IMG/VR virus record: IMGVR_UViG_3300022929_000230
Location: 1 to 22,818 of that record
Source: a virus
DNA length: 22,818 bases
Reading direction: 5' to 3' (one strand)
Below are positions 12,538 to 22,666 of the stretch, piece by piece (within the stretch, counting starts at the first letter, position 1; every line of letters begins with the position of its first letter). The notes under the pieces were generated by a model. It saw nothing but the letters and a program-made list of their open reading frames with translations, made no database searches and was not told the DNA's origin. Both the position numbers and the translations under genes were made by a program.

Positions 12538-12868
12538 ATTGATAATAGCAGAGGTTATGACTGCTGAGTTCTATGAAATGAAAGCTGCACAAACAGCTAT
12601 ATTTCCAAAAGAAAAAGCCTTAGAGTATTTAGCTCTAGGCTTGACAAGTGAGGCTGGGGAAGTTGCAGGCAAAGTTAAAAAACTTATACGTGACGGTAAG
12701 GGCGATAAGAAAGCAATTGCATCAGAGATAGGTGATGTACTTTGGTATTGTGCTATGTTAGCAAGAGAAACTGAAGTTCCTTTGAATGATATTATGAAAG
12801 AGAATTTAAAGAAGTTACATAGTAGAAAAGAACGTGGAACATTAAAAGGGTCAGGTGACGATAGATAA
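12494..12868 (+). CDS. mazG: MazG-like nucleotide pyrophosphohydrolase
   Basis: A 124-aa all-alpha NTP pyrophosphohydrolase of the MazG type, which removes pyrophosphate from unwanted nucleotides or from alarmone-like signals. The metal site is visible as SEAGEVAGKVKK (ExxE) followed by SEIGDVLWYCAML (ExxD), with the expected spacing. Start 12494 has an AAAGGG site six bases upstream but overlaps the RMF-like gene by 44 nt; ATG 12527 (MEDKLI) is a reasonable alternative that keeps the whole domain, as family members commonly start shortly before the TAxYP-like segment. It is the last gene of the plus-strand arm, and its TAA directly abuts the stop of the convergent virion gene. Many marine phages carry mazG. 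Confidence 0.92.
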   Translation: MLKLEEEAKRFMEDKLIIAEVMTAEFYEMKAAQTAIFPKEKALEYLALGLTSEAGEVAGKVKKLIRDGKGDKKAIASEIGDVLWYCAMLARETEVPLNDIMKENLKKLHSRKERGTLKGSGDDR

Positions 12869-15800
12869 TTATTCTGCTATTACACCATAATCTACAGCAA
12901 ATTGTAGTAACATCGTGTAGTCATCATTTCCAATTTCTACATTAGGGAATTGCTTTTTAAAAGCAGTTAATATTATATTTCTGTCATTTTCAGAAATCTT
13001 AAAAAATCTAGCTTTTTCTTTTCTAATTACATCTTGGGGTGTATCATAATCTTTTTCATCTAGTGCTTCAGCTACTGCCTCACTACGTATTGAATTTAAC
13101 TCTATTCTTAAAAACTTTTCTTTTTCATAGTCATTTGCTAAGTTTATATATTCAGGACTGTTAATAAAATTATTTAAATGGTGTTCCATAGCCAATGCAA
13201 CATTTTGTCTAGCCTCTCTGTTAGCTATATTATCTTGCACTTTTACTGGTGCTACCTCAAAATAATCTAAACGGAATCTGTCTAACTCTTGTTGAACATC
13301 ATTCTTTTCTTCCATAGGAGTTAATCCAGTTATCTGCCTAAACATAGGCATTGTGTTTCTAATGCCTGTACTTTTGTACGGTGTAGTTTGAGGTGGTCTT
13401 TCTAAGAAACCTTCTCCATCCGAGTGTGCTTCCATTGGGAATGATCTTGTAGCTTGTTTTAACATGTAGGGTAAAAACTCTACATCTGTATTATCCGTCA
13501 ACATACGTGTGTCTGGATCAACCATTTGAACTGCATCTTTAATCATACCTGCACCAACAGTATATGTACTAAAATAGTTACCCACGAATTTAGCTAGTCC
13601 TTGTTGGAATTTATTGCTGTCTAAAGCTGTTTCTTCTGTTGCTAGTTTCACAATCTCATCTACAAATTGTAAGCCTGTACCTGCCCTAGATAAACCACCA
13701 GATAATGCCTCTACAAATTCTCTAGTTTTTATCTTTCCTGTAACCTTATCATTGTCATGCAATCTATAACCAAATGCTTTCTCTAACTCACCATTAGGTC
13801 TTCCTATTTGATATAACGCATCTGCTACAAAAGCATATGCCATAAAAGGTCCTAGAGATGCTCTAGCATCAAATGTACCATGACCAAATGGATTCTTATA
13901 TTCATAAGCACCTGTAGTCTCATCTCCTAAGTTATCTCGCATTCCAAAAAATGCACCTAACATTGCTAAACCAGTTACTTGTTTTCCAAATCTTTCAGCA
14001 GTAGCAGATTTGTTTAAAACACCACCTATATCCAGCATACCTATAATAGGAGCGTGTTCGTACACAAATCTAAATTGATTAACTATATATCTTGGAAAGG
14101 GAACAAAAGCAGAACCTAGCTGACTTGACGATGCTTGTATAAATGTATCAGCAGCACTGTTGAAAACACCTGCTTTGCCTCTAAACTTACCTGTTTGATA
14201 TGTAAAATCCAAAGCTTTTTCCATAGCTCCCGCTAACGCTTTATCATCCATCATTCTAAAGTTACCACTAGAAACTAAATCACTTAAACCATTTATACCC
14301 TTTTTCTTAAATACATCAGCGGCATCTGTCTTAATAAGTTTATCTATCTCACGAGAGAATATAGCAGATTTAAATACATTATCACTTAAAGTATTAAACT
14401 TATTTAAAAATCTAGCAGTTTTTAACATGTTGCCTGAATCTGCTCCAACAGAAGTTCCTATATCTCCTAACTCTCTAAATAATTGTTTAGCTACATCTGA
14501 ATTACCTAATTTTGGGTCTTTGAATACTTTAGTTAATATGGCAGTATCAATGCCTTGCAAACCAAACACCATATCTTTTAGCATTAAAGATTGACCTCCA
14601 GCCCTCAACTGAGCAATGCCCTCTTTAACTGCAAATTCAGCACCTTTCATTAACTCTTTATCAGAGCTACCTACAGCCAGTCTGTAAGAACCTTTGACAT
14701 AATTAAATGCTCCAGCGCCTAAATTATCTAAAGCATACACATAGTTACGCATATAACCATTTGTAGTGTTTCTAACTGTAGTAGCGGCTTGAATAGTCAT
14801 CATACCAATACGTGTTTTATTTAACGCTCTAAAAAAATCACCCGCTTTGTTTAAAACTAAACCCCTGTCTGCTCTTTGAGTGACAACATTTCGTGCTGCT
14901 TCTGTGGTTTCACCTAGCGTAACAAGAGCCTTATCTAAATCTGTTAGCTCTTCAAATAACTTTTTTCTCTCTTTTCTAGATAGAACACTACCAGTTTGTA
15001 AAGTTCTACCAGCTTGAGACATTTCGGCAGCATATAATGCACCAAACTCTGTAGCACTAAGATTGTGTGCTTTTAGAACACCTAAAAATGAATCTGTGCT
15101 TATTATACCACTTGATATACCTCTAGCTATACGAGATGTTATTCTTTCTTCTAAATCTTCTTTACTGCCTTTAGCAACTCTTGTTAGCTTACCATCCTTC
15201 ATAACCTCTCTTGCAGGTATCATGTCCATAACTTCTGATGCCGCAGAGCCTATGTTTCTTACAATTTTTTCATCTAAACTTAGTAAAGTACCCTTTTCTA
15301 CAGCTTCATCTATTTTTAATCTTTTACCTACGTTCATGTTAAAACTACCAAGAGTTTCATCTAGTGATTTTTTTAAAATTGTAGAGTAGGCTTGAGCTAC
15401 TTTACTTTTAAAGTCTTTACTTTTACCAAACTTTTTACTACTGATTGTTTTATAAACATGACTAATAGCATTACTACGTTTTTTAACTTCTTTTGCTGTG
15501 AACTGACCTGCAATATTACTAGTAAAAGCTTTACGTGAACCTGTTACACCACCAATAATACCACCGGGAAGACCAGAAATTGCACCACCTAATGCTACTG
15601 TACCTAAATCTATCTCTTCTTTGTCTTCATCAGTAAGTACACGGGTCTGTTCTTGAGCAGCTACTGTTCCAGCACCACCAAGTGCATCAACTGTTGCACC
15701 ACCAATAGCAGTTTTATAACCACCACCTATAAATGCTTGTTTAGCAGTTGCCAACTTGCCCATTTTCTCAGTGCCTTTTTGTAAAGCTTTCTTGGTCATC

Positions 15801-16264
15801 TTACCACCACTAGCTTTAGCACCATTCTTTATTATCTCTTTGATACCAAACTTTATACCTTGTTGAGCTGCTAATGTTCCAGCTTTACCTGCACCAAAAG
15901 AAAACATAGACGCATACGTAGATGGAGCAGTAAATACACCACCTAAATAATCCGTCACAGTTTCTGATGTAAAGTCTGTATCTTGATTCTCAAATGTAGA
16001 CATGAGTCTACCCATGCGAGCTAGACCCTCGTCATCACCTTGTTGCTCATATTCTTGTGCTAAATACATATCACGCACAGCAGATACCTCATTCACATTT
16101 TGATAACGGAAATGCTCTAAATATCTGTCATATATATCTTCTGCATTATCTGATTGATAGTCTTCTCTATCATACAAAAATTGTTTTGCATCATAGATGA
16201 AGTCAACATCATTGATAAGGTTTTCTCTATTTAATTCTTCTTTGGAGAACTGTGTGTAGGACAT
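12869..16264 (-). CDS. large internal virion (DNA ejection) protein, probable
   Basis: This 1131-aa protein is the last gene of the virion arm. I recognise no enzymatic motif, including no transglycosylase or peptidase signature. Its size, terminal position and Ala/Gly-rich hydrophobic stretches (roughly residues 100-260, such as ALGGAISGLPGGIIGGV) resemble the large inner-core or ejection proteins of podoviruses, which leave the capsid with the DNA and insert into the cell envelope. Long helical regions (residues about 260-700) and further hydrophobic patches (VTGLAMLGAFFGM) agree. The C-terminus is charged and helical. The start ATG has only a weak ribosome site (GGGT) and lies 8 nt after the preceding stop. 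Role by position and composition, not by a named family. Confidence 0.8.
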   Translation of the reverse strand: MSYTQFSKEELNRENLINDVDFIYDAKQFLYDREDYQSDNAEDIYDRYLEHFRYQNVNEVSAVRDMYLAQEYEQQGDDEGLARMGRLMSTFENQDTDFTSETVTDYLGGVFTAPSTYASMFSFGAGKAGTLAAQQGIKFGIKEIIKNGAKASGGKMTKKALQKGTEKMGKLATAKQAFIGGGYKTAIGGATVDALGGAGTVAAQEQTRVLTDEDKEEIDLGTVALGGAISGLPGGIIGGVTGSRKAFTSNIAGQFTAKEVKKRSNAISHVYKTISSKKFGKSKDFKSKVAQAYSTILKKSLDETLGSFNMNVGKRLKIDEAVEKGTLLSLDEKIVRNIGSAASEVMDMIPAREVMKDGKLTRVAKGSKEDLEERITSRIARGISSGIISTDSFLGVLKAHNLSATEFGALYAAEMSQAGRTLQTGSVLSRKERKKLFEELTDLDKALVTLGETTEAARNVVTQRADRGLVLNKAGDFFRALNKTRIGMMTIQAATTVRNTTNGYMRNYVYALDNLGAGAFNYVKGSYRLAVGSSDKELMKGAEFAVKEGIAQLRAGGQSLMLKDMVFGLQGIDTAILTKVFKDPKLGNSDVAKQLFRELGDIGTSVGADSGNMLKTARFLNKFNTLSDNVFKSAIFSREIDKLIKTDAADVFKKKGINGLSDLVSSGNFRMMDDKALAGAMEKALDFTYQTGKFRGKAGVFNSAADTFIQASSSQLGSAFVPFPRYIVNQFRFVYEHAPIIGMLDIGGVLNKSATAERFGKQVTGLAMLGAFFGMRDNLGDETTGAYEYKNPFGHGTFDARASLGPFMAYAFVADALYQIGRPNGELEKAFGYRLHDNDKVTGKIKTREFVEALSGGLSRAGTGLQFVDEIVKLATEETALDSNKFQQGLAKFVGNYFSTYTVGAGMIKDAVQMVDPDTRMLTDNTDVEFLPYMLKQATRSFPMEAHSDGEGFLERPPQTTPYKSTGIRNTMPMFRQITGLTPMEEKNDVQQELDRFRLDYFEVAPVKVQDNIANREARQNVALAMEHHLNNFINSPEYINLANDYEKEKFLRIELNSIRSEAVAEALDEKDYDTPQDVIRKEKARFFKISENDRNIILTAFKKQFPNVEIGNDDYTMLLQFAVDYGVIAE

Positions 16265-16272
16265 GTAGTTAA

Positions 16273-17691
16273 TTACCCAGCTATTTGCTTATTAAATTCT
16301 TTTGTTGCTATATCAATAGTAGCACCCGGATTATCCTTTATAAATTGTTTAACAAACGCTTGTTCTAATTCTATTTTTCTTTTAACTCTAGTTTTGCTAT
16401 TTAAACTTTTAACATTAGGTAAGTTTTTAACTTCCCCTACTATTTGACTAGGAGATAGAGTGCTTATATCTTTAACTTTATTTTCTTCTATTATCTGTTT
16501 AGGGTCAAGCTGTTTAGTGTCTTTAGGATTTAATATTTTTCTTGTCTCTGCGTCTAAAAATTCAGAGTCCTCAACTATTTGAATAGTATATTTACCATTT
16601 ATAGTTACTCCTATTAATTGTTTATTAGTAGCAATAGCTTCATTTATCTTTAAGAAGTTAGAGTTCCCATCTTCTAAATCACCATTATATGTAGCTTCTT
16701 CAACAAACTTTAAATAATATCTAGTTGCTCTATCTAGTACTTTAAGCTGACTTGCTTCAGCATCTGCACCAACGTACACACCAAATTTATTTCTCTTCTG
16801 CTTAATATTATAAATACCAACTAAGGATTCATTTATTTTATTACTTGCACTTGTTGTAGCATTGAAATCCATGCCCTTTTTACTTTTTAAACCTCTAATA
16901 ATACCTTCAGTTACATCCATCATAGATTTAATGTCAGCTTCTTTTTCTTTGGTTAAAGTGCCATCTCTCTCTGCATTTTTTAATATAGTAATAAGCCTTG
17001 CTTTCTCCTCTATTGGGTTTTCTTTCATTCCTAATATGAGAGGGTCAATTTTACCTTTTACCGCAGGAGGCAATTCAATTGTTTGTTCATTTACATCTAT
17101 ACCCCTCGCTTTAATAAGAGCCTCTGCTCTAGTGGTAATTTCACTACTAGCGTCTTGGGCAGGTCCTAAAAAATTAGACTTCATAAATCCCACAGGTGCA
17201 GATTTTCCTAGCTCCGATATGTCAGGCATAGACACAGGTGGAACAGTACTCTTTGTCAAAGCACTCAATGTTATAGGAGTTGCATTTCCTGTTTCATCAG
17301 CTAGTAAGGCTTTGATTGGGTCTTTTCCATAAAACCTAAAAGCTTTATTGTAATCTTGAGCTACTTCAAATGCACCATCTAAACCCTTTAAGTTTATTAA
17401 TGTTTGAGCTGCTTGCAAAGCTTGAGGATGTTGAACACCTTGATCTCCACCTAAATTAGAAGCAATATTTTCTACCAATTTCTTATTTTCTTTATACATC
17501 TTGTCAAATTCTTTTTTGCTTTCTACAGCACCTTTATATGTTTCAATAACTAAATTATCAATATTATCTTGGGTACGTTTCATGTCTTCTTGTATGCCTA
17601 CATCTACAGACTTTGCAAAACCTCCAACTAAACCTTCAGCAAATTGTTTATTTAATCCTAGTGCCTTTCCTAAACTACCTAAAAATGCCAT
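16273..17691 (-). CDS. probable internal virion protein
   Basis: A 472-aa protein of unrecognised family. It starts in a TAATG overlap with the upstream gene. The N-terminus (MAFLGSLGKALGL, then LVGGFAKSV) is a glycine-rich amphipathic helix of a kind seen at the ends of phage ejection proteins, followed by a long charged helical region (residues about 35-80, many Lys, Glu and Asn) and an Ala-rich helix. The middle is mixed alpha/beta and the C-terminal third is again charged and helical. It lies directly upstream of the 1131-aa gene, so the two may form the internal core together. No enzymatic signature is seen. Confidence 0.75.
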   Translation of the reverse strand: MAFLGSLGKALGLNKQFAEGLVGGFAKSVDVGIQEDMKRTQDNIDNLVIETYKGAVESKKEFDKMYKENKKLVENIASNLGGDQGVQHPQALQAAQTLINLKGLDGAFEVAQDYNKAFRFYGKDPIKALLADETGNATPITLSALTKSTVPPVSMPDISELGKSAPVGFMKSNFLGPAQDASSEITTRAEALIKARGIDVNEQTIELPPAVKGKIDPLILGMKENPIEEKARLITILKNAERDGTLTKEKEADIKSMMDVTEGIIRGLKSKKGMDFNATTSASNKINESLVGIYNIKQKRNKFGVYVGADAEASQLKVLDRATRYYLKFVEEATYNGDLEDGNSNFLKINEAIATNKQLIGVTINGKYTIQIVEDSEFLDAETRKILNPKDTKQLDPKQIIEENKVKDISTLSPSQIVGEVKNLPNVKSLNSKTRVKRKIELEQAFVKQFIKDNPGATIDIATKEFNKQIAG

Positions 17692-18215
17692 TAAGCTCTC
17701 CTTGCCATTAAGCCTTTGGGTTCTTCCGTAGGCATTTCTTCTTCATTCATAGGTTCTTCTGTAGGCATTGCCTCATCTTGCGACACTGGCATGTCTTCAT
17801 CAGAGCCTTTTTCAGACTTTAAATCTTGTACTATTTTATCAAGCATTGCGGGTCTATTGGGTTTACCACCTTCCATACCTGTAACATATTCAACATCAGC
17901 AGAATCTCCTATAAGCATCATAGTTTCAACTAAAATAGGTATCATAAGCATACCTACATCCACTGTGTGCAAACCCTCCATGACACTAGCCAATTGTATT
18001 GTATTAGCAAGTGTAGTAAGTGGTATTTGCATTTTCATAATATCTAACAACTGCTCTTTAAATTCAGGATTAGACATTCTCTCTATATAATAATCAGAGG
18101 CTTCCTCTACAGTTGCATATGTAGGAGGTGTTTGCCAAGGTCTAGCACCAAGTTCGTGTGTCATTGACATTCCCGGAATAGGTCTGTCAAAGGATGTATC
18201 ATCAAGCTGTTTCAT
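17691..18215 (-). CDS. conserved virion-arm protein with acidic repeat tail
   Basis: A 174-aa protein. I chose ATG 18215 over the upstream in-frame GTG 18224, because the only ribosome site (GAGGTG) lies at a proper distance from the ATG and touches the GTG. The N-terminal PIPGMSMTHELGARPWQ-x-PP segment followed by a TVEEA helix is a pattern I associate with marine phage structural operons. The middle (residues about 60-105) is a hydrophobic helical pair (LASVMEGLHTVDVGMLMIPI). The tail is acidic and contains two copies of EMPTEEP/AMPTEEP about eleven residues apart, before a basic RRA end. It overlaps both neighbours. It may be an assembly or scaffold-like accessory protein; function is unproven. 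Confidence 0.78.
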   Translation of the reverse strand: MKQLDDTSFDRPIPGMSMTHELGARPWQTPPTYATVEEASDYYIERMSNPEFKEQLLDIMKMQIPLTTLANTIQLASVMEGLHTVDVGMLMIPILVETMMLIGDSADVEYVTGMEGGKPNRPAMLDKIVQDLKSEKGSDEDMPVSQDEAMPTEEPMNEEEMPTEEPKGLMARRA

Positions 18216-18423
18216 TCGTGCCACCTCTCTTAGGGTTCTTACCTCTAATATATAATTGTATTTCTCTAGCAGTCAATGCTGGTTGTTTAGATTGAGGTTC
18301 AATTTGCCTAAAATTACTTTTTCTATTCATCATACCATTACCTCTAGGTTTAGTAGGTTGACTAGATGGTGTTCCTAATTTCTCAAAAGAAGTTAATATT
18401 CCCGGAGCTGGTTGAGTTTCCAT
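18202..18423 (-). CDS. small hypothetical protein, proline/basic-rich
   Basis: A 73-aa product starting at ATG 18423, three bases after the stop of the 637-aa gene, with an AAAGGA site upstream; a TTG at 18429 would add two residues. The protein is rich in Pro, Gln, Arg and Lys (TPSSQPTKPRGNG) and appears mostly unstructured, apart from a short helix at LTAREIQLYIRG near the C-terminus. It overlaps the next gene by 14 nt. Overlaps on both sides and the ribosome site support its reality; no family is recognised. Confidence 0.65.
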   Translation of the reverse strand: METQPAPGILTSFEKLGTPSSQPTKPRGNGMMNRKSNFRQIEPQSKQPALTAREIQLYIRGKNPKRGGTNETA

Positions 18424-18425
18424 TA

Positions 18426-20339
18426 TCAAAACAATCCTTTCATTATAGAAGCCTTACCTAATGTACCTATCAAACCACCAATAGCTGTACCTGCTGCAGA
18501 ACTGGAGGACATTTGATTAGCTCTATCCATTGCATCTGCTTCTAGTTGAGCTATAGCCATCTTGTTAATTCTTTCTAGTTGATTATCTGCACTAGTCCAT
18601 GCCCATTCCATAGTATCAGCATAGTAAGACCATAAGTTATCATATGCTTCTTTAGATACATCTAAGACAGCATTTGCATTTAATTCATTGGCTCTGTTAA
18701 CAGCAGCTGTATCTGCAGTAGCTATCTCTCTTCTCCATACTGCATTATTTTGTGCTATAGCCAATTGGTTAGTGGCATTATATTGGTCACGTTGGTTGTT
18801 CATCTCTGCGTTAAATCTCTCAACTGTGTTCACCTGACCTGCATTAAATTGAGATTGTGCATTAGATTGTGTAGCATTAAACTGTGCGGCTTGCGTAGCT
18901 AAGTTAGCAAAAAACTGATCCACTTGATTTTGTGAAGTAGCATTGAATTGTCTACTAGCATTCTCAGCAGCTTGGTCTGTAAATAGTGATTGCACTCTTT
19001 GTTGTGCTTTAAATAAATCTGTCTGCTGTTGATTTGATAAGTTAGCCATGTCTTGTTGTAAAAAGCTTTGAGCATTTTGAACTGCGGCTTGTTGTCTGTT
19101 ATTTAAATTAGACATATCTAAGTTAGCTAATGCAGAAGCTTCAGCCATTACCATAGCTTGTCTATTACTTAAATTATTTAAGTTCATAGTATTTACAGCC
19201 CGACTGTTTTCCATAGCTATGTTTTGTTCTGCTGTAAAATTCATATTAGCTATATCACCAATTCTAGCAGCGTTCTGCACTCTAGCTTGGAAGTTTTGGT
19301 CAAACTCTTGACCCATAAATGTTGCTCTTTGTTGAGCCGCAAGCATAGCACGTTGTTGTCTGTTTGTCAAGTTTTGTGCTTCAAAACTAGCTATTGTTTG
19401 AGCATCAGCCTGTGCTATAGGCAATGCAGATTCTAAGGCAGCTTGAACCATTGCTTGACCTGCCATACTAGATGCACCCAACCCTCTCGCTGCCATTTGA
19501 GCTTGAACACCTCTTAATGCTCCAGCCGCCCATGCAGGTGGGTTATTCATGTCAAAGTCAGCAGTAAGCTGTGCTAGTTGTCCTTGTACTGTTGCTTTCT
19601 CTGTTGGGGTAGCTGTGGCGGCTTGAATCTGTTCAGTAAACTTAGCTGCCTTCTCTGCATCTGCTACACCACTAATTAATTCACCATCCTGTATTTCCCT
19701 TTGTACAGGATTAGTCATTAGAGTAGCATTACCTTGTGCAGCAGTAACATTACCTACACTAGTTGCTGTTTGTTGAGCCGCTAAGACTTGAGAACGTGGG
19801 TCATTTAATGTCATTTGAGCCGCATTAGTTGCAGCCAAAGCACTATCTACATTGTCTGCCATCTTGTCTGCTGTTGTCTGAGCAGCTTGCAGTGATTGAG
19901 GTTGAGTAGTAGTAGTTGTTGAAGCCATTGCTGTTGGAACACCTACCGTTCCAGCAACTTGACCTAAACTAGTATCTATTTCTTGGTCAGCAGTTACTTG
20001 CGTACCCACAGGTATTGTTACAGCACCTTGAGGTAGAGATGGGTCTTGCAGCATCTTTGCTGATACATCCCCTATGGTATCTTCAGGTGCATAGTTAGAT
20101 GTTGTAGGAACTGTCGCTTGGCTTAACTGTCTAGGTTGAGCTTGCCCACCTGTTTGCATTTTAACTACAGCACCTCCTCTAGCCATCTCTTGTGCCTTAC
20201 TTCTATACACAATCATCTCACGTTCTTTGTCAGGGTTCTGCTTCAAGTAGTCATCAAACTTTTCCATACTACCTGCATAACCCATACGTGTGGCTATCTT
20301 CTGTAATCCTTGTGGCTTAAAGCCTTTAAACATTGCCAT
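18426..20339 (-). CDS. long Asn/Gln/Ala-rich virion protein with 11-residue repeats
   Basis: A 637-aa probable virion protein. Residues 1-60 are a charged globular head; 60-240 are Thr/Gln/Ala-rich and low complexity (a run of TTTTTQPQ near 140); 301-564 consist of 24 uninterrupted 11-residue units, often starting Asn-Ala or Asn-Leu; a Trp/Tyr-rich helix follows (NLWSYYADTMEWAW) and the C-terminus is a Gly-rich hydrophobic segment (GTAIGGLIGTLGKA). Eleven-residue periodicity indicates a very long, slightly right-handed helix or coiled coil. There is no cysteine or enzymatic motif. Position just upstream of the large internal virion proteins suggests an ejection-channel or inner-core component, or a tail rod; this is inference. 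Its start overlaps the upstream stop by one base. Confidence 0.82.
   Translation of the reverse strand: MAMFKGFKPQGLQKIATRMGYAGSMEKFDDYLKQNPDKEREMIVYRSKAQEMARGGAVVKMQTGGQAQPRQLSQATVPTTSNYAPEDTIGDVSAKMLQDPSLPQGAVTIPVGTQVTADQEIDTSLGQVAGTVGVPTAMASTTTTTQPQSLQAAQTTADKMADNVDSALAATNAAQMTLNDPRSQVLAAQQTATSVGNVTAAQGNATLMTNPVQREIQDGELISGVADAEKAAKFTEQIQAATATPTEKATVQGQLAQLTADFDMNNPPAWAAGALRGVQAQMAARGLGASSMAGQAMVQAALESALPIAQADAQTIASFEAQNLTNRQQRAMLAAQQRATFMGQEFDQNFQARVQNAARIGDIANMNFTAEQNIAMENSRAVNTMNLNNLSNRQAMVMAEASALANLDMSNLNNRQQAAVQNAQSFLQQDMANLSNQQQTDLFKAQQRVQSLFTDQAAENASRQFNATSQNQVDQFFANLATQAAQFNATQSNAQSQFNAGQVNTVERFNAEMNNQRDQYNATNQLAIAQNNAVWRREIATADTAAVNRANELNANAVLDVSKEAYDNLWSYYADTMEWAWTSADNQLERINKMAIAQLEADAMDRANQMSSSSAAGTAIGGLIGTLGKASIMKGLF
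18648..19439 (-). repeat. 24 tandem degenerate 33-bp units encoding 11-residue (hendecad) repeats
   Basis: Within the 637-aa gene, residues 301-564 divide into 24 consecutive 11-residue units with no insertion or deletion. Examples in register are NLTNRQQRAML, NLNNRQQAAVQ, NAQSFLQQDMA, NATSQNQVDQF, NATQSNAQSQF, NAGQVNTVERF and NAEMNNQRDQY. Position 1 is Asn in 15 of 24 units, position 2 is usually Ala or Leu, and position 11 is often Phe, Tyr or another non-polar residue in the later units. In the middle an alternating 22-residue super-repeat (NLxNRQQ) is visible. The DNA copies have diverged, so the period is conserved by protein selection. Confidence 0.88.
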
Positions 20340-21124: not shown

Positions 21125-22666
21125 TTAAATTGCAGATATTATAAATGCTAGTAATTGATTATACCTAACACCTAATCTAGTCTTTTCTGTTGCACCCTCT
21201 GGTGCTTCTTCTTCTGTTTCGTATGTTTCACCATCAAGTTCCCACCAAGTGTTAGATGTAAACATTGCATAGTCACTTGCGTCTAAACCCTCTGCCGTAA
21301 AAGCATCCTGTAAATCTTGTGCTATAATACCAAAGTGAGTTCTTGCATTATCACCTTTTTCTGCGACTGAATCTATCCATCTAAACTTTCTCATAAGACC
21401 TTTAGCAACGACAGCTACTCTTTGTTCTGCTTCACTTAGTTCTTCTATGTCTTGCTTTTCATTTCTATCTGAAGTTTGGATTGTTCCATTGGTTGCGTAG
21501 ATGTCATCCCAACGTACACTTGAATATCCCAAGTCAACAGCATTATCTCTATTAGAATCAGTAGTTAAATCAAAAGCCATCATAGAATTATTACCAGCAT
21601 CAAACTTTAAGGCTGTATCATTTGCTCCTACAACTAATCTTGAAGCATGAACAGCAATACTTCCCACAGTAGAGCCGTCACTATTGAACACCAAAATATC
21701 GCCATCCGAGTTTAGACGATTGAGAGCCATACAATCATTTCCATCTCTAGCTACTGCAATATTACCAACGTTTTGTAAGTTAATTCCTGTTCCTGAACCA
21801 CTATTATTGAAAACACTGTTATCAGTAGTACCCACCAACAAGTTACCACTGCTGTCTATACGCATACGTTCTGTGCCATTTTTAGTAATACGAAATGACC
21901 CATTACCTGCATCACTACTAAGGGTATAGTAATGGCTATTAATGCTACTCTCTATTCTCAAAGCATCATTTACACTATCAGAAGCTGCTTTAATATGTAA
22001 TTTCCCAGCAGGACTACTAGTACCAATACCAACATTGCCACTGCTAGTGACGTAAACTTTAGGGTCATTATTTACTCTTAGATTTAGTGAATCATCATTA
22101 TGGTTATATGAAATACCACCCCTTGTTAAATCAGCACCAGAAGTTCCATCTGCAAAAAATATTGCTCCATTATCAGTAGTTCCAGAGTAAATAGTCATTC
22201 CTTCGCCACCTGAACCACTCCCAACAACAAAATTATTTGCATTAGAATTAAATGATGATGGCGAAGTGGTTCCAATACCAACATTGCCACTGCTATCTAT
22301 TCGCATACGTTCTGTGCCACCATTCGTATGAAAAGTAAAAGCATTTGATGCGTGTTGATAATTTATTTGACCAGTTGTGGTGCTATCAGTGTCAGCAAAA
22401 AATATAGCACTGTTAGATGAGTTATCTGCGTATATGGTAATACCCTCTGAACCACTACCAGTACCAACTACAAGATTGTTTGCACCACCATTAAATGAAG
22501 ATGGACTACTAGTACCAATACCCACATTTTCAGAACTATCTATAGTAATAGCTGTTGCATTTGCATTGTCATCTATACCTTGTGAAGTAAATGCACCTGT
22601 TACATCAAGAGTACCACTGAGGTTTGCATCAGTGACTATCTTGGATATGTCTTTTGCTCTTGTCAT
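21125..22666 (-). CDS. tail fibre with C-terminal self-cleaving S74 chaperone domain
   Basis: A 513-aa receptor-binding tail fibre. A short N-terminal attachment region (DISKIVTDANLSGTLDVTG) is followed by repeated SSGNVGIGTSSP and ERMRIDSSGN blocks (GIGT at about residues 51, 130 and 216, with a degenerate VGTTD copy near 283), the usual trimeric beta-stalk pattern. The C-terminus from residue 398 is an intramolecular chaperone of the peptidase S74 family: Ser399 and Lys404 (TSDRNEK) match the catalytic Ser-x4-Lys, and FGIIAQDLQ is the conserved helix. In this family the chaperone trimerises the fibre and then cuts itself off before the Ser, here releasing about 115 residues. An AGGGGA ribosome site precedes the ATG. 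First large gene of this arm inside the window. Confidence 0.93.
   Translation of the reverse strand: MTRAKDISKIVTDANLSGTLDVTGAFTSQGIDDNANATAITIDSSENVGIGTSSPSSFNGGANNLVVGTGSGSEGITIYADNSSNSAIFFADTDSTTTGQINYQHASNAFTFHTNGGTERMRIDSSGNVGIGTTSPSSFNSNANNFVVGSGSGGEGMTIYSGTTDNGAIFFADGTSGADLTRGGISYNHNDDSLNLRVNNDPKVYVTSSGNVGIGTSSPAGKLHIKAASDSVNDALRIESSINSHYYTLSSDAGNGSFRITKNGTERMRIDSSGNLLVGTTDNSVFNNSGSGTGINLQNVGNIAVARDGNDCMALNRLNSDGDILVFNSDGSTVGSIAVHASRLVVGANDTALKFDAGNNSMMAFDLTTDSNRDNAVDLGYSSVRWDDIYATNGTIQTSDRNEKQDIEELSEAEQRVAVVAKGLMRKFRWIDSVAEKGDNARTHFGIIAQDLQDAFTAEGLDASDYAMFTSNTWWELDGETYETEEEAPEGATEKTRLGVRYNQLLAFIISAI

Follow-up and report, generated by a model that had tools for sequence, protein, structure and literature searches.

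A strictly phased helical repeat protein of HMO-2011-type phages, probably part of their DNA-injection machinery

The locus and its repeat gene

HMO-2011-type phages are among the commonest phage groups of the ocean. The stretch of DNA analysed here, referred to as the window, is a 22.8-kb virus record (IMGVR_UViG_3300022929_000230, 22,818 nucleotides). A gene starting with ATG on its minus strand, for which the first-pass annotation had given no strand, encodes the 637-aa protein that is the subject of this work (Table 1). The nearest named homologue is ADW08438.1 of HMO-2011 (69% identity), in agreement with the kinship initially proposed. Other relatives were found in roseophages, pelagiphages, Rhizobium and Sinorhizobium phages, Vibrio phage CHOED, Aeromonas phages and Pseudoalteromonas phage Slicky01; searches of Pfam, PHROGs and the PDB retrieved no significant relative of the window protein. 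The Asn/Gln richness (N+Q = 29%) and the Gly-rich hydrophobic C-terminus described in the first-pass annotation are both present. Most indels of the family fall in the linker, where lengths are not multiples of 11.

Table 1. Features of the repeat protein, its gene and the genes downstream of it, and tandem repeats of the longest relative (window positions, except in the last line)
Feature	Positions	Strand	Details
Whole repeat-protein gene	18426..20339	-	637 aa; homologue of HMO-2011 gene phage1322_25 (ADW08438.1)
Residues 1-55, small helical N-terminal domain	20175..20339	-	AlphaFold2 pLDDT about 87-95 for residues 11-50
Residues 56-225, variable low-confidence linker	19665..20174	-	Family alignment and AlphaFold2
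Residues 249-322, most conserved domain	19374..19595	-	Motif PxWA...RGLGASS...SALPIAQ; contains N anchor P307
Residues 301-564, 24 hendecads of the first-pass annotation	18648..19439	-	
Residues 323-454, N-side, six 22-residue repeats	18978..19373	-	NL-S/T/D/N-N-x-Q-Q...; predicted helix-turn units
Residues 455-465, middle motif between the two repeat types	18945..18977	-	DQAAENASRQF; anchor A461
Residues 466-564, C-side, true 11-residue repeats	18648..18944	-	NA...QF; predicted continuous helix
Residues 608-637, Gly/Ser-rich hydrophobic C-terminus	18429..18518	-	SSSSAAGTAIGGLIGTLGKASIMKGLF
Small downstream gene	18202..18429	-	75 aa; overlaps the repeat-gene stop
Downstream gene	17691..18224	-	177 aa; about 164-185 aa at this place in relatives
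Downstream gene	16273..17691	-	472 aa; at the place of T7 gp15 / P22 gp20
Downstream gene	12869..16264	-	1131 aa; at the place of T7 gp16 / P22 gp16
Tandem repeats of L258	1671-2071 and 4375-5169		

Three proteins from contigs of metagenome-assembled genomes (MAGs; L418, L419 and L420) have only the LPIA domain (RGLxNSSM...SALPIAQQDAQ) in common with the repeat protein, and continue after it with other helical, partly 11-residue repeats. Since that domain alone is shared, the family would lie within a wider superfamily of uncharacterised proteins.

Elsewhere in the window, the plus-strand replication genes and the minus-strand late genes abut directly at 12868/12869, with no spacer. A 300-aa ORF (1324-2226) resembles a tyrosine recombinase (putative) in an otherwise lytic-looking phage, and the NVGIGTSSP motif recurs in a 513-aa tail-fibre protein (21125-22666) with an S74 domain at its C-terminus.

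The repeat and its phase in the window protein

The first-pass annotation described 24 consecutive hendecads without insertion or deletion in residues 301-564, with Asn first in 15 of them, and recounting from the sequence gave the same figures. Self-identity of the window protein was 0.18-0.22 at lags 11, 22, 33 and 44 and mostly 0.05-0.14 at the remaining short lags, a result matched by none of 5000 shuffles. The boundaries could be refined: the repeat phase begins near residue 323 and runs past 564, the C-side phase extending to about R590, and W535 and R590 lay exactly 55 residues apart in all 272 relatives having both anchors.

The hydrophobic residues do not form a single alpha-helical face, and the polar and hydrophobic stripes on the helical wheel are mixed. 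The 11/3 harmonic carried 0.3% of the hydrophobicity power, which rules out a single amphipathic hendecad helix. The averaged wheel hinted at a two-faced barrel helix with an amide-lined lumen; because the second harmonic gave p 0.16 in a permutation test and the averaging blended two repeat types, we do not claim such a helix.

Conservation of the phase among relatives

As a measure of phase that is independent of gap placement within the repeat, we took the distance between two anchors near its ends, P307 (the P of LPIA) and W535 (the W of NxxWRR). This distance was 8 mod 11 in all 277 relatives, among which 15 distinct lengths occurred, the shortest 118 and the longest 778 residues (10 to 70 units), and the rule held in all 46 clusters at 70% identity and in all 15 at 50% identity. 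The chance of 15 lengths agreeing is ~3e-15 if they are independent, and the true figure is less extreme because the lengths are related by descent. Twelve loci fetched later from MAG contigs, some of them copies of one phage, were likewise all 8 mod 11, and two of these showed combinations of N- and C-side unit numbers unseen before (N16 and N4). Contigs L405-L408 occurred under the same names and lengths in both a Flavobacteriales and a Neomarinimicrobiota MAG; as they are phage contigs, this binning is uninformative on the host.

The control segments behaved otherwise. From the start codon to P307 there were 41 different lengths and in the C-terminal tail 45, and in both cases all eleven mod-11 classes were occupied. 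Among 81 close relatives no indel was found between residues 225 and 601, in contrast to the linker at 57-80, where they abound. Proline was absent from 47,809 repeat residues, as compared with 5.7% of the linker, and cysteine was absent from the same residues. With every one of the 277 and 12 sequences in phase and the controls unquantised, the strong selection on the 11-residue phase postulated in the first-pass annotation is upheld; homologues that break the phase were looked for and did not occur.

Two repeat types, N-side and C-side

A third anchor, A461 in DQAAENASRQFNA, divides the repeat region into an N-side and a C-side. The N-side length was 0 mod 11 in all 277 relatives and 0 mod 22 in 276 of them, as well as a multiple of 22 in the 12 later loci; the C-side was 8 mod 11 in 277 of 277, with both odd and even unit numbers. 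As A461 sits inside the repeat, its mod-11 agreement could have been helped by the repeat itself, which leaves the total distance unaffected, and the parity of the N-side is the more telling result. Across the family the N-side ranges from 3 to 64 units and the C-side from 4 to 17.

In sequence, too, the N-side has a period of 22. In the clades with 24 and 34 N-side units, N-side identity was 0.26-0.37 at even multiples of 11 and 0.12-0.18 at odd ones; in pelagiphage-group relatives with 30-40 units odd and even lags were nearly equal. In the HMO/freshwater clade, 99% of repeats have S, T, D or N at position 3 of the 22-mer, positions 2 and 10 are hydrophobic in 95% and 100%, and Gln occupies positions 6 and 7 in 88% and 82%. 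The position 3 preference was 94% in the group with six or eight N-side units and 70% in the pelagiphage group, as against 36% at the same position of the C-side. Judged from these residue frequencies, the 22-mer has the pattern expected of a helix N-cap with a capping box. Given the lag identities, 22-residue doublets describe the N-side half better than hendecads do.

The 110-residue step

With 91 relatives placed on a tree by their flanking domains alone, parsimony required at least 19 changes in N-side unit number. Fifteen of the 19 are multiples of 10 units (110 residues), with a probability of about 6e-8 under equal likelihood of every multiple of 22, the changes being inferred and the ancestral states uncertain. 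The pelagiphage group, which has members lacking 330-bp arrays, forms a ladder of 10, 20, 30 and 40 units, and only three of its four changes fit the step (p 0.03). One later relative (L409) has 16 units, so that 110 is a preference and not a law.

Some members of the freshwater clade carry 330-bp tandem DNA repeats, which would make 110-residue steps easy. The longest relative, L258, has a 330-bp repeat present 2.4 times in the helical part (78% matches) and a 24-bp repeat present 12.7 times in the linker. These arrays, together with an amino-acid identity of 0.52 at lag 110 in the longest relatives, raise the question of whether the quantised lengths are a mere trace of recombinational duplication between DNA repeats, with no structural constraint behind them. 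We consider this improbable. The window gene, L170 and L174 have no such arrays and yet are in phase, small out-of-phase indels of the repeat are absent in close relatives, and the linker DNA of the same genes varies freely. In the window gene, moreover, no tandem array was detected and the 22-mers average 40% nucleotide identity; slippage therefore does not keep its phase.

Predicted structure

The window protein was modelled as a monomer with AlphaFold2 from 91 sequences, alignment rows from annotated records being left out (mean pLDDT 70, pTM 0.33). The model is all-helical wherever it is confident, as the first-pass annotation had anticipated, with a small N-terminal domain and a low-confidence linker; for residues 301-564 neither a compact fold nor disorder was predicted. 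Residues 291-431 form shorter helices, with breaks at 342-347, 386-392 and 432-435 that coincide with the starts of the 22-residue units, followed by one helix at 436-633 (198 residues, about 30 nm, pLDDT mostly about 85-90).

A relative with 34 N-side units (L243) was also modelled with AlphaFold2 (pLDDT 68, pTM 0.42). Its N-side is predicted as mostly 13-16-residue helices starting at 139, 161, 183, 205, 227, 249, 271, 293, 315 and 337, exactly 22 apart, with pLDDT 82-87 over 141-280, and this helix-turn chain is followed by a long helix at 459-547. The model agrees with the N/C split derived from lengths alone. Two of its repeats with a different turn, at 180 and 290, are separated by 110 residues; a putative superhelix of five 22-residue units per turn would explain the 110-residue step. 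As monomer models of repeats based on few effective sequences, both call for caution, and the number of breaks in the N-side is not the same in the two.

The hendecad observation was right and is stronger than first stated, and the reading of the 264 residues as one continuous rod of about 40 nm holds in part. Residues 436-633 stand as a confidently predicted helix of about 30 nm, but the N-side is broken in both models. Foldseek found no PDB match for the window model. The best fold matches of the L243 model were designed helical repeats (7udl and others), which are artificial, at E 0.02, a weak value that is not significant. Mutual-information couplings (126 sequences, effective number 29) were scattered and uninformative on hairpins.

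The gene block

In HMO-2011 and other annotated relatives the repeat gene is followed on the same strand by usually one or more small genes, then by one encoding 365-811 aa and one encoding 817-1893 aa, and this block is kept in phages of several host genera. The ejection proteins of T7 and P22 are encoded in the same order (PMC8954989). The succession of a smaller protein, one of about 500 aa and one of about 800-1900 aa was thus found here also, the first protein being larger than gp14 or gp7. The Slicky01 protein at the place of the 1131-aa gene matches virion structural protein families; for the 472-aa protein, Pfam and PHROG searches gave no match. Within the structural block of the pelagiphages HTVC115P and HTVC033P (L084 7444-7893; L088 3088-5202) a lysine-acyltransferase, 2OG-Fe(II) oxygenases and a ferrochelatase are annotated.

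A Gly-rich hydrophobic segment ends the protein in many relatives. Others carry a C-terminal S74 domain (chaperone of endosialidase), usually a tail-fibre feature, as seen at L089 (4609-7020) and at the end of the L187 ORF, which is S74-like. The homologue of roseophage CRP-738, which has this domain, matched phrog_4287, annotated as DNA ejection protein (E 2e-13). The match is real, but it spans the Gly-rich segment and S74 of that one relative only, and we rejected it as an identity for the family. Neither Pfam profiles nor hhalign linked the protein by sequence to any of the named ejection families, and a literature search found no virion proteomics or structure of the repeat protein.

From gene position together with architecture we infer a role in DNA ejection; the names virion protein and ejection tube, used in the first-pass annotation, are likewise readings of gene order. 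The protein would be a structural protein of short-tailed phages, most likely the first of the internal or ejection block, acting as a measured alpha-helical device, a view to which we give about an even chance.

A trimeric tail needle or tail fibre, similar to P22 gp26, would also be a long coiled coil, external to the capsid, that varies by whole repeats. The repeat gene does come after the tail-fibre genes, P22 needle genes directly precede the ejection genes, and two sequenced relatives terminate in S74, a domain that in other proteins brings trimeric fibres to maturity. We nevertheless regard a needle or fibre as unlikely, as hhalign with P22 gp26 gave no match (E 0.83), most relatives end in the Gly-rich hydrophobic segment with no knob, and the N-side is predicted as helix-turn units. 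A scaffold or assembly chaperone absent from the finished virion appears very improbable: all-helical, Gln/Ala-rich scaffolds exist, but the P22 scaffold gene sits between portal and coat, far from the place of the repeat gene.

Comparison with known systems

T7 gp14 (PF24072) and P22 gp7 (PF25688) are, as here, products of the first genes of their blocks (gp14/15/16 and gp7/20/16) with Gln/Ala-rich helices, and T7 gp14 refolds into helical hairpins (PMC11784390). Both differ from the repeat protein in being about 200 aa long and in lacking the 11-residue repeat. PF24072 gave no profile match (hhalign E 0.29). P22 gp7 has in common with our protein a GLGS-type motif and the Gly-rich hydrophobic C-terminus; PF25688, however, was matched neither by the window protein at E 0.1 nor by 11 members at E 0.01, and homology was rejected because hhalign with a seven-sequence alignment gave E 0.18-0.5, with reversed controls as good.

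The H pilot protein of phiX174 (PF04687) forms a decameric DNA tube, a conduit through the cell wall, built with hendecads and with an inner wall mainly of Asn, Gln and Arg (PMC7354561). The hendecads and these residues recall the repeat protein. Unlike it, H has three hendecads followed by heptads, belongs to a single-stranded DNA phage and shows another hendecad core pattern; as the core positions do not correspond, identity of the two patterns was discarded. No profile match to PF04687 was obtained (hhalign E 0.15 over 17 columns).

Siphophage tape measure proteins are similarly long and helical, and several show periodicities of 11 or 18 residues, that of TP901-1 consisting of 25 repeats of 11 (PMC5099701). 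The 11-residue periodicity of a long helical protein was found here too, the repeat length is quantised and Foldseek gave a weak match to a tape measure protein (E 0.014), so that a tape-measure-like protein setting the length of a conduit deserves consideration. It is nonetheless quite unlikely. HMO-2011-type and RCA phages are podoviruses (PMC6918029), with no long tail to measure; Asn/Gln, not Trp/Phe, mark the repeat; Pfam and other profile searches gave no match to a tape-measure family; and unit number showed no convincing correlation with the lengths of neighbouring proteins (Spearman p 0.08 at best, n=10). Together, by analogy the repeat protein would work most like a repeat-built ejection protein, and by sequence it falls outside all the named families.

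A model for the repeat protein and its significance

The sequences establish an N-side of 22-residue units and a C-side of 11-residue units in which length changes by whole units only. The N-side would be a chain of 16-residue helices with short turns, an alpha-solenoid, and the C-side one long hendecad helix bundling with its own copies and ending in the Gly-rich hydrophobic tail, as predicted. The protein may be packed in the capsid near the portal and leave ahead of or with the DNA, its hydrophobic end would enter a host membrane, and part of the conduit may be lined or braced by the Asn/Gln-rich helices. Gain or loss of a non-integral number of units would rotate the two ends of the helix relative to each other, so that only whole-unit changes survive. 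This ejection model draws on monomer predictions of low pTM (0.33 and 0.42) and on a hydrophobic pattern that singles out no bundle type.

A more speculative and, in our estimation, unlikely extension is that of a shape-changing spring, in which the N-side units have two states, a helix plus turn forming a compact solenoid in the capsid and two hendecads forming an extended rod or tube after ejection. It would explain why the helix-turn repeat is exactly 2 x 11, why it shares its phase with the C-side and why the turns are free of proline.

In summary, the protein is probably a precisely measured helical device, so far undescribed, that forms part of the DNA-injection machinery. Both DNA conduits and length-setting proteins can contain hendecads, as the phiX174 H tube and the tape measures demonstrate. 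Furthermore, the strict-phase family constitutes a natural length series, whose short and long members could show the effect of repeat length in DNA delivery, and the middle anchor, the 22/11 split and the 110-residue step provide precise predictions for cryo-EM.
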